Position numbers and translations under genes: made by a program. This document shows, piece after piece, positions 7,846-10,205 of a stretch of 48,689 bases of DNA. Under the pieces are notes generated by a model. The model saw nothing but the letters and a program-made list of their open reading frames with translations. It made no database searches and was not told the DNA's origin. The DNA comes from an uncultured bacterium. Its GTDB lineage: Bacteria; Bacillota; Clostridia; Oscillospirales; Oscillospiraceae. Location of the stretch: positions 1 through 48,689 of the forward strand of contig CANRXB010000018.1 of NCBI GenBank assembly GCA_947643715.1, given 5' to 3'. The number at the start of each line of letters is the position of its first letter. Position 1 is the first letter of the stretch.

Positions 7846-8131
7846 GGAGGAAACCTCGTGCTGTACTCACAGCCGCCCGCTGGCTCATGGGCGATGGTCC
7901 CTGTGGCCTTCGCCTGTCTGCGCCGGGAAACGGCCCAGGGAGCATACTGTGGATCCGCATGGATCGGACCGCATGTGCGTCCCACCGCCGGCCTTCGACA
8001 GCCCCAGACATGGTCATGTCGCCCAGGCGGCGTATTTTTTTCTTCCCGATGCAACGATCGGGCCCCTCCTGGGGTATTATAGATGACAGGCAAGACCCGT
8101 GCCGCGGCCGAGGCGCGGGGGAGAGGAGGCG
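7846..8131 (+). other. Non-coding region upstream of the sigma-factor gene
   Basis: No convincing gene is seen in these 286 bp. A T-tract (8034-8041) and a small hairpin CCCGAT/ATCGGG (8045-8062) precede a -10-like TATTAT (8075-8080). A -35 box could not be placed confidently. The promoter of the sigma-serpin operon most likely lies here, possibly recognised by the sigma factor itself. Confidence 0.4.
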
Positions 8132-8608
8132 ATGGCCTTGACCCAAGAGCAGCGCACCCAGGTAGTGGAGCGCTGGGGCGATATGGTCTGGCGGCTGGCC
8201 CTGGCCCGTACCGCCAGCGTCCCGGACGCTGAGGACGTGTTCCAGGAGGTGTTCCTGCGCTATTTCCGCCACGAGGATCGGTTCCAAAGCGACGAGCACC
8301 GCAAGGCATGGCTCATCCGCTGTACAGTGAACCGGGCCAAGAGCGTGTTCGCCTCGCCCTGGCGGCGGCGCACCGTGCCTTTGGAGACCGCCGAGGAGGT
8401 GGGCGTGGAGGACGACTACCGCGAGGTGTACAGCGCAGTGCTGTCCCTGCCCGCGAAATACCGGGCCGCCATCCACCTGCACTACTTCGAGGGCCTGTCG
8501 GTGGCCGAGATGGCCACCGCACTGGATGTACCAGAGGGCACGGTGAAATCCCAGCTCAGCCGGGGCCGCGCCCTCCTGCGGGATATGCTCAAGGAGGTAG
8601 AGCTATGA
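8132..8608 (+). CDS. ECF-type RNA polymerase sigma factor
   Basis: 158 aa, the usual ECF size. Region 2 (about residues 20-75) has DAEDVFQEVFLRYFRH and RKAWLIRCTVNRAKS; region 4 (about 105-155) has LPAKYRAAIHLHYFEGLSV, EMATALDVPEGTVKSQLSRG. There is no region 1.1 or 3. The ATG at 8132 is used because GAGAGGAGG lies 4 bp upstream. Its stop overlaps the start of the serpin gene by 4 bp, the position where the cognate anti-sigma gene normally lies. The regulated genes are unknown; autoregulation is likely by analogy. Confidence 0.93.
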   Translation: MALTQEQRTQVVERWGDMVWRLALARTASVPDAEDVFQEVFLRYFRHEDRFQSDEHRKAWLIRCTVNRAKSVFASPWRRRTVPLETAEEVGVEDDYREVYSAVLSLPAKYRAAIHLHYFEGLSVAEMATALDVPEGTVKSQLSRGRALLRDMLKEVEL

Positions 8609-10155
8609 AGCGATATCAAAAAGCGAACGAGGGCATCCATGCCCCCGATGGATTGAAACAGGACGCCGCTCGTCCCACAGGGAAAGCCCGGTATGCCCGC
8701 TGGACGGGCGCGGTAGCTGCGGTGTTGGCGGTGGCCCTTTTGGGCGGCACGATGATGTGGCCCGGAGCAGACAACGGCCCCACCCCGCTCTCCAACGAGA
8801 ACGGTCCTGTCGTCAGGACCGCCGTACAGCCCGTGGCCTCGCAGGCCCTGGCTCTGGCGGAATATCCGGAGACGGCCCCTTATCCCAAGGACGAGGACTT
8901 CATCTCTCCGATCACCGGAGAGCTCCAGCACCAAAAAATGAACGATGCGTGGGACGCCTGGCGCGAAAGTATGGACGCGCTGTCCTCCGGCATAGACTAT
9001 ACCGGGGTACTGGACGGCTTCCTGACCGCGTCCACCACGCAGTTCCTGTCCGGGGCAGGGGAGGAGAACCGCGTCTATTCCCCTTTGAACGTCTACATGG
9101 CCCTGTCCATGCTGGCGGAGACCACCGGGGAGAACACCCGTCAGCAGATCCTGGACCTGCTCCAAGTGAGCTCTGTCGGGGACCTGCGGGAGCGCGCTTC
9201 CGTTCTGTGGCGGGACAACTACCGGGACGACGGAGTGGTCACCTCCATCCTGGCCAACTCCCTGTGGCTCAGCGACAGCATGACCTACAGCAAGGACGTG
9301 CTCGCCCGGCTGGCCAAGGACTATTACGCGTCCTCCTTCTCCGGCGCCATGGGCTCCTCGGAATATGACCAGGCCCTGCGGGACTGGCTCAACGAACAGA
9401 CCCGCGGCCTGCTGTCCCAGCAGGTGGAGGGCCTGAGCATGGACCCGCAAACGGTGTTGGCCCTGGCCTCCACCATCTATTTCAAGGCCACCTGGGACGA
9501 TGAGTTCCAAACAGAGCTTACCGAGACCGACACCTTCCACGCCCCCACCGGCGATGTGGACACCGACTTCATGCACCGCACTATGGCGACCAACTACTAC
9601 TGGGGCGACCGTTTCGCCGCTGTGGAGCTCAACTTCCGGCAGGGCGGATCCATGTGGCTGGTCCTCCCCGACGAGGGGCACACGGTGGATGAGCTGCTCG
9701 AGTGCGGCGAGGCCATGGACTTCCTCCTGGCTGAAAAGACCGGCAGCTACGACGAGAACGGCGCGTCCAAGGGTGGCTGGCCCGGTAAGAAGCATCTCAA
9801 CGTCAACCTGTCCATGCCCAAGTTCGACGTGTCCTCCGACCTGGATCTCATCGAGGGCCTGAAGGCGCTGGGCGTCACCGACGTGTTCGACTACACCGCC
9901 GCCAACTTCGACCCGCTGGAGGCCAGCACCAACGATCCGCTGTACGTCTCCCAGGCACAGCACGCCGCTCGGGTGAAGGTGGACGAGGAGGGCTGCGAGG
10001 CTGCGGCCTACACCATCTTCATGGTAGAGTGCGGCGCTGCGATGCCCCCCGCCGATGAGGTGGACTTCACCCTGGACCGTCCCTTCCTGTTCGCCATCAC
10101 CGGGGACAGCGGCCTGCCCCTGTTCACCGGCGTGGTCAATCAGCCCAACGGCTGA
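8605..10155 (+). CDS. Membrane-anchored serpin in the anti-sigma position
   Basis: 516 aa. Residues 1-32 are basic and cytoplasmic (with IHAPDGLKQD), about 33-52 form a membrane helix, 53-125 are a linker, and about 126-514 form a serpin fold outside the membrane. Serpin landmarks: VYSPLNVYMALSMLAETTG; YFKATWDDEF; hinge EEGCEAAAYT (461-470); and LDRPFLFAITGDSGLPLFTG. The reactive loop runs about 463-482 (MVECGAAMPP at its scissile part), so the target protease cannot be named. P14 is Cys rather than the usual Thr/Ser. The ATG overlaps the sigma stop (ATGA), so the two are translationally coupled. A role as protease sensor controlling the sigma factor is inference. Confidence 0.9.
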   Translation: MKRYQKANEGIHAPDGLKQDAARPTGKARYARWTGAVAAVLAVALLGGTMMWPGADNGPTPLSNENGPVVRTAVQPVASQALALAEYPETAPYPKDEDFISPITGELQHQKMNDAWDAWRESMDALSSGIDYTGVLDGFLTASTTQFLSGAGEENRVYSPLNVYMALSMLAETTGENTRQQILDLLQVSSVGDLRERASVLWRDNYRDDGVVTSILANSLWLSDSMTYSKDVLARLAKDYYASSFSGAMGSSEYDQALRDWLNEQTRGLLSQQVEGLSMDPQTVLALASTIYFKATWDDEFQTELTETDTFHAPTGDVDTDFMHRTMATNYYWGDRFAAVELNFRQGGSMWLVLPDEGHTVDELLECGEAMDFLLAEKTGSYDENGASKGGWPGKKHLNVNLSMPKFDVSSDLDLIEGLKALGVTDVFDYTAANFDPLEASTNDPLYVSQAQHAARVKVDEEGCEAAAYTIFMVECGAAMPPADEVDFTLDRPFLFAITGDSGLPLFTGVVNQPNG

Positions 10156-10164
10156 CTCCGGCCC

Positions 10165-10205
10165 ACAAAAGGACCCCCTCCCTGGGATACAGGGAGGGGG
10201 TCCTT
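10165..10205 (-). terminator. Terminator between serpin and ileS
   Basis: A 16-bp stem (10169-10184 with 10190-10205) with a 5-nt loop. On the minus strand it is followed by TTTT, so it terminates ileS; for the rightward serpin transcript there is no T-run, but the stem may still stop or stabilise the mRNA. Confidence 0.75.

Follow-up and report, generated by a model that had tools for sequence, protein, structure and literature searches.

The gene pair studied here is best explained as an ECF sigma factor together with its own anti-sigma factor, the latter carrying an inhibitory-type serpin as an outside sensor and releasing the sigma factor by proteolysis; we put the probability of this account as a whole at about 0.6. 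Its parts differ in strength. Comparison with related sequences makes it very likely that the serpin protein is the anti-sigma factor of the adjoining sigma factor, which it would bind through its N-terminus. Trapping of, or cleavage by, a protease is the probable input signal. A proteolytic relay downstream of the serpin is slightly favoured.

Organization of the sigma-serpin locus

The features of the locus are listed in Table 1, with positions counted in the window, i.e., the whole stretch of 48,689 nucleotides that was analysed. The product of the first gene matched Sigma70_r2 (PF04542; 46 bits, residues 12-76) and Sigma70_r4_2 (PF08281; 60.5 bits, residues 97-149) above the Pfam cut-offs, and TIGR02937 was also above its cut-off. 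The protein is short and consists of regions 2 and 4 alone, which places it among the ECF sigma factors. The product of the second gene is a serpin, as indicated by a PF00079 match of 222 bits over residues 151-514.

The stop codon of the sigma gene (TGA, 8606-8608) and the start codon of the serpin gene (ATG, 8605-8607) lie in a common ATGA, through which the two genes would be translationally coupled. This overlap had been pointed out in the earlier note and was confirmed. The topology given there, a cytoplasmic part of about 32 residues followed by one membrane helix and an outside serpin, was also borne out, with 34 residues before the helix. A hydropathy scan found no second charge-free hydrophobic stretch in the serpin protein of the window. 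In the AlphaFold model of this protein, pLDDT is below 50 at residues 1-84. The gap between the helix and the serpin is made up of the linker and an extension, about 80 residues in all, and the start of the serpin is set at residue 151 by the Pfam match and at about 128-131 by the fold matches. A Pfam scan of the serpin protein with E values up to 1 returned PF00079 alone and no anti-sigma domain in the segment; the NCBIfam model CU044_5270 matched residues 21-100 with 21.4 bits, well below its cut-off of 100.

No further gene was seen in the bicistron of the window besides the sigma and serpin genes. A terminator-like hairpin lies at its 5' side, and a 16-bp hairpin stands at its 3' end. The latter has a folding energy of -36.4 kcal/mol (z -5.05; 0 of 200 shuffles equally low), and none of the T-runs listed on the + strand is located at it.

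Table 1. Features of the sigma-serpin locus (window coordinates).
Feature	Position	Strand	Details and basis
ECF sigma factor gene	8132..8608	+	158 aa; PF04542 and PF08281 above cut-off
Membrane-anchored serpin gene, putative anti-sigma factor	8605..10155	+	516 aa; PF00079, AlphaFold model, fold matches
ATGA overlap, sigma stop/serpin start	8605..8608	+	Sequence
Cytoplasmic segment, residues 1-34, core RYxxANEGIHAPxxLK, putative sigma-binding part	8605..8706	+	Alignment; recurrence on non-serpin ECF-linked proteins
Transmembrane helix, residues 35-51	8707..8757	+	Hydropathy scans
Low-complexity extracellular linker, residues 52 to ~85	8758..8860	+	Low pLDDT; varies between relatives
Serpin domain, residues 151-514	9055..10146	+	Pfam and fold matches
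Hinge, residues 461-470, EEGCEAAAYT, P17-P8	9985..10014	+	Low column entropy
Reactive centre loop, bait part, residues 471-482, IFMVECGAAMPP	10015..10050	+	High column entropy; low pLDDT
Predicted ECF-type promoter	8051..8078	+	Conserved GCAAC and GGTATT pattern; predicted function
16-bp hairpin between serpin gene and convergent ileS-like gene	10169..10205	.	RNA fold

Conservation of the sigma-serpin pair

A scan of named genomes revealed the sigma gene directly 5' of the serpin gene in all ten relatives. Relatives were found by search in 37 of 42 genomes of the genus, and a tally over the fetched loci gave a sigma-adjacent serpin in 29 of the 42; the rest comprise one genome with fragments only (G811), seven with a canonical serpin only, and five with none. 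For a wider comparison, identical serpins were merged (237 to 202 frames), and repeats of one locus in two collections were dropped likewise. The 202 distinct serpin frames (loci L025-L262 and the window) come from serpin-directed searches and hence form a non-random sample, in which 59 frames, including that of the window, are sigma-adjacent, 138 are not, and 5 were set aside as undecidable owing to too little upstream sequence. The search profiles for sigma factors and serpins were built iteratively within the same analysis.

The arrangement of the window recurs within this set. The offset between the two genes is -1 (ATGA-type) in 45 of the 59 pairs, and a hydrophobic helix follows after 30-51 residues in all 59 serpins, as judged by hydropathy. 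Thirteen of them have an extra charge-free hydrophobic stretch, which lies close to the serpin's C terminus in 12 cases and at residue 132 in L225. One of the 59, L211, belongs to another family of the class, and L277 is an additional sigma-serpin pair outside the family, beyond the 59. The background was estimated from serpins that do not directly adjoin a sigma gene: after 57 non-adjacent serpins with short upstream sequence had been dropped, a sigma gene was found within 1.7 kb of 12 of the 82 left (L161 among the 12). A plasmid search returned distant serpins only (23 records, all below 60% identity).

The cytoplasmic segment recurs on other sigma-linked proteins

Two types of cytoplasmic segment were distinguished by pattern, four serpins being assigned by eye. 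Type A is the segment of the window, RYKKANEGIHAPEELK. Its residues M1, R3, Y4, A7, G10, I11, H12, P14, and K18 are invariant (11/11 in alignment A1), and IHAP forms its conserved core. Type B reads DIFDAITDVRDDLIEEA or AIGxVDDxLxxxA, and the segment of L211 belongs to neither type.

A 56-column alignment of the type-A segment alone, with the sigma factor not part of the query, was used to search 200 genomes of the family. Among the matches listed (more than 30), 30 loci were examined, including the window's own, and a sigma gene on the same strand was found upstream in all 30. Twelve of the proteins are serpins and 18 are not. In the 17 loci where the match starts within the first six columns, the sigma gene always ends within 50 nt, and 12 of these 17 proteins are non-serpins. 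Pfam analysis of 10 of the 18 non-serpins gave RsgI_M in two and an M23 peptidase in one; in the same ten, DUF4179 was just below the cut-off in one, a sub-threshold, chance-like match was obtained in one, and nothing was obtained in five. The M23 domain (115.7 bits) is the outside part of an ECF-linked membrane protein with a type-A segment, encoded at L246:355-1695 on the - strand. This domain is of a peptidoglycan-cutting kind and possibly acts there as an anti-sigma sensor or as an output.

The type-B alignment was searched over 245 genomes of the class, and 29 of 30 loci were examined, the window's own being omitted. A sigma gene lies upstream in 28 of the 29 and within 150 nt in 26. The exception is L302 (1470-2702, + strand), where a type-B segment precedes a serpin split over two frames and no sigma gene is present in the 1.5 kb upstream; it is apparently a decayed locus. 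Non-serpins account for 27 of the 29 proteins, and Pfam analysis of ten type-B non-serpin proteins gave no match above cut-off. Many ECF-linked membrane proteins across the class (L277-L306) are recognizable by a type-B segment, and their outside domains are diverse.

The serpin protein of the window thus has two properties of membrane anti-sigma factors: its gene is conserved, coupled, and placed directly after the sigma gene, and its segment is common to other sigma-linked membrane proteins.

The segment follows the sigma factor

The sigma factors of 33 type-A serpin pairs form a single clade (99/97). In the sigma tree, they sit among sigma factors whose type-A partners are non-serpin proteins, the types of the non-serpin rows being assigned by hand. 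For the trees and distances, each sigma factor was represented by the C-terminal 175 residues of its stop-to-stop frame, which in some cases may include residues before the true start. The serpin-domain tree was built from 12 type-A and 22 type-B rows drawn from a larger set. There, types A and B interleave; type A needs four changes, at least three of them forced by well-supported branches, and type A as a single clade was rejected at a modest p-AU of 0.033. A quick serpin-domain tree interleaves the two types likewise. The label 'non' in the serpin tree might hide duplicates of adjacent serpins; inspection of the loci showed that the 'non' rows within the main clade are truly non-adjacent.

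The distances point the same way. For 57 pairs, the partial correlation of segment distance was 0.87 with the sigma factor given the serpin vs. 0.40 with the serpin given the sigma factor. Within type B (25 pairs), the correlation was 0.69 between segment and sigma factor vs. 0.03 between segment and serpin, and within type A (32 pairs) it was 0.53 vs. 0.44, each reached in 0 of 2000 permutations. The segment follows the sigma factor clearly across the types and within type B, and only weakly within type A. Exactly such a pattern would result from recombination in the linker, and this is what exchange of the sensor domain means. The serpins of L225, L227, and L211 fall outside the main serpin clade in the quick tree (L227 as a long branch), which suggests that the coupling of sigma factor and serpin arose more than once.

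The earlier note had asked whether the N-terminal residues recur in other ECF-linked membrane proteins and whether the sigma-serpin adjacency is conserved. Both questions can be answered in the affirmative, the first by the two segment searches and the second by the ten relatives and the 59 distinct serpins. The comparison gives good support to its view that the serpin takes the position of an anti-sigma factor, as the pair is conserved, the segment recurs, and the segment tracks the sigma factor (only slightly within type A). The one-shot protease sensor that it proposed is a plausible role, the hinge and loop of the serpin being of inhibitory appearance.

Hinge, bait loop, and fold of the serpin domain

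Column entropies were determined for 58 sigma-linked serpins. The mean was 0.88 bits for the hinge (residues 461-470) vs. 1.64 bits for residues 151-445, and 2.27 bits for the bait part of the loop (residues 471-482, 11 columns). Residues 473 and 474 are more variable than 96-99% of the domain columns. For residues 477 and 478, numbered P1 and P1', the corresponding shares are only 56% and 69%, respectively, and for residue 482 only 31%. The P numbers are our own count against the serpin reference. In the AlphaFold model, pLDDT is below 50 at residues 472-484. A conserved hinge of small residues together with a variable, exposed loop is the pattern of inhibitory serpins, and on the whole it fits inhibitors with changing targets. 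By our count, P1 is Gly or Ala, from which an elastase-like target protease may be guessed. The AlphaFold model is at least as close to cleaved and latent serpins as to native ones; the scores are close, and no conformational state was read from it.

Some of the data would also suit an anti-sigma factor whose serpin is no protease trap. It could then be a ligand sensor, similar to the hormone-carrier serpins, or a stable domain, with the sigma factor released by cleavage or shear anywhere. Position P14, usually Thr or Ser in serpins, is a Cys in the window, as it is in many relatives. The P1-P1' positions are middling in variability, none of the other outside domains attached to this segment is a known inhibitor, and the fold matches include carrier serpins, together with inhibitory ones at close scores. 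Such a function is nevertheless unlikely, since the hinge is conserved, the loop is more variable than the rest of the domain, and residues 473 and 474 stand out as changing protease targets predict.

Predicted promoter of the sigma-serpin operon

The predicted promoter of the window consists of GCAAC (8051-8055), 17 nt, and GGTATT (8073-8078), and is located 53 nt before the sigma start. In the type-A loci, GCAAC is found 5' of the sigma gene in 30 of 31 cases, although the surrounding sequence has diverged, and it is followed by about 17 nt and, in most loci, GGTATT. The pattern of GCAAC-N15-19 and a TA-rich element was present in 26 of the 31 loci vs. 1.3% of mononucleotide shuffles. ECF promoters typically contain AAC in their -35 element. 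We infer that the sigma factor autoregulates its operon. A search of six genomes with GCAAC-N16-18-GGTATT gave 11 matches vs. 8 for the reversed control, and a wider regulon was not found among them: four of the 11 are sigma promoters, and the other seven have no visible common gene. The genome of the window contains a second GCAAC-N17-GGTATT site (L266, G000:C16:30563-30590), located before a lipoprotein-like gene, which could be either a chance match or a member of the regulon.

Proposed mechanism

In the preferred account, with the serpin as a protease-trapping sensor, the membrane-tethered N-terminal segment of about 34 residues would hold the sigma factor at rest. An extracellular protease would attack the bait loop, and the serpin would either trap it covalently or be cut. 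The irreversible change of the serpin would make the linker or stalk accessible to signal peptidase or another site-1 protease, after whose cut an M50 intramembrane protease would complete the cleavage and free the sigma factor. The freed sigma factor would transcribe its own operon from the upstream promoter, thereby raising the amounts of both sigma factor and serpin, and in related loci also of a second, plain serpin.

Direct mechanical transmission of the shape change is unlikely because the linker is flexible, and by analogy with RsiV, a relay of site-1 and then M50 cleavage would be the likelier route. An M50 protease is encoded in the genome of the window (200 bits). M50 proteases were also matched in all 14 control genomes, so its presence is permissive. 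Motifs similar to A-x-A occur in 41 of 58 linkers vs. about 27 in shuffled linkers, and a clear site-1 motif was not found in the 58 linkers, whose end is poorly defined. The closest paralogous sigma factor in the genome is paired with a different membrane partner of its own, which makes cross-talk possible. A more far-reaching form of the model would have a suicide sensor, in which the irreversible serpin trap is the input stage, the variable bait loop is an evolvable port that sets the protease, and the same fold serves as both sensor and output; we hold this form tentatively, at a little under even odds.

The long low-complexity linker would also agree with a fuse or threshold arrangement, in which the serpin shields the anti-sigma stalk and the sigma factor is freed once the serpins are exhausted and the linker is cut. 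The second serpins of the tandem loci described below could raise such a threshold. This arrangement, which we regard as quite unlikely, differs from the protease-trap model solely in the sign of the trapping signal.

Relation to known systems

According to the available parts of PMC4183432 and PMC6066255, binding of lysozyme by the outside domain of RsiV leads to cleavage by signal peptidase and then regulated intramembrane proteolysis. RsiV and sigma-V are a pair of Bacillus subtilis, and the pair is also reported for Clostridioides difficile. RsiV is likewise a membrane anti-sigma factor, and its outside domain directly binds the attacking enzyme, as far as the sources describe it and as is proposed here for the serpin. 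The protein of the window differs in that Pfam detects in it neither DUF4179 nor DUF3298, the other domain of RsiV, and in that its outside domain is a serpin, which would trap proteases irreversibly.

The RsgI-like sensors of Clostridium thermocellum carry CBMs, glycosidase, and peptidase-like domains (available parts of PMC3413522 and PMC12203970). They are built in the same way, with a cytoplasmic segment, a helix, and an exchangeable sensor, and RsgI_M occurs at loci of this type in relatives. However, the protein of the window has no RsgI domain according to Pfam, its partner is an ECF sigma factor and not SigI, and RsgI signals via autocleavage. Class II (CnrY-type) anti-sigma segments are set apart by a length below 50 residues in the available part of PMC7406223; the segment of the window, with 34 residues, is similarly short, the comparison being by length only. 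The targets of siropins, which are serpins of gut bacteria, include human neutrophil elastase and proteinase 3, according to the available part of PMC5127057. Siropins and the Bifidobacterium longum serpin are inhibitory serpins of gut bacteria, but are described as purified inhibitors, with no sigma coupling in the available part of that paper.

We found no report of a sigma-serpin pairing in the accessible portions of the open-licence literature. The available text of PMC10059941 and PMC3413522 contains no sigma-serpin link, and that of PMC8233489 and PMC6718151 contains no word beginning with 'sigma'. As far as these searches go, the plan of sigma factor, anti-sigma segment, helix, and exchangeable sensor is known, and the serpin as the sensor is new. 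If the account is true, protease attack would join the signals that are read by a membrane anti-sigma factor binding the attacker itself, as with RsiV and lysozyme. Bacterial serpins, treated so far as inhibitors in the literature available to us, would gain a signalling role, and exchange of the bait loop should shift the inducing protease. The two short N-terminal segments also define a set of anti-sigma-like proteins in Clostridia whose exchangeable outside domains may report many signals.

Tandem serpins and three-gene loci

Seven distinct type-A loci (L030-L034, L136, and L137) consist of a sigma gene followed by two serpin genes in tandem; five of them are also represented by a second copy (L133-L135, L138, and L142). 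In all seven, the cytoplasmic motif is present on the first serpin only, and in L032 and L033 the second serpin is lipoprotein-like. An exception is the type-B locus L161 (1951-4863, + strand), in which both tandem serpins carry the segment and the second does not adjoin the sigma gene; these are possibly two anti-sigma copies for one sigma factor.

A different layout was found in L040, L048, L058, L059, L151, L153, L154, L155, and L156, where an ECF sigma gene is followed by genes for a separate type-B membrane protein and a canonical serpin. The middle membrane protein has another outside domain, and the serpin is mostly lipoprotein-like. Of the seven genus genomes with a canonical serpin only, six were fetched (G802 not included), and all six have this layout. 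In L037 and L190, a sigma gene lies within 1.7 kb of the serpin gene and no type-B protein was found between them. The three-gene layout indicates that such sigma factors probably have the serpin among their outputs as well, and we infer that the fused form may have arisen from this layout.

A serpin that follows an ECF sigma factor and a separate type-B protein and is itself lipoprotein-like (the six genus genomes, L040, L048, and L059) is what would be expected if the serpin were an output only, i.e., a membrane-anchored protective inhibitor, with the true anti-sigma factor encoded elsewhere. For the window, this explanation is very unlikely. It is the separate protein that bears the segment in the three-gene layout, whereas in the fused form it is the serpin protein, and a serpin acting only as an output gives no reason for the segment to track the sigma factor or to recur on non-serpins behind sigma genes. 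Chance adjacency or a gene-calling artefact is refuted by the recurrence of the pairing in 59 distinct pairs with a conserved overlap and a conserved segment.

Serpins of other families are joined to different parts. Several of them follow DLNGDGxVNSxD repeats, which are dockerin-like by eye (L177-L184), and others follow SLH-like or solute-binding-like parts (L185-L212).
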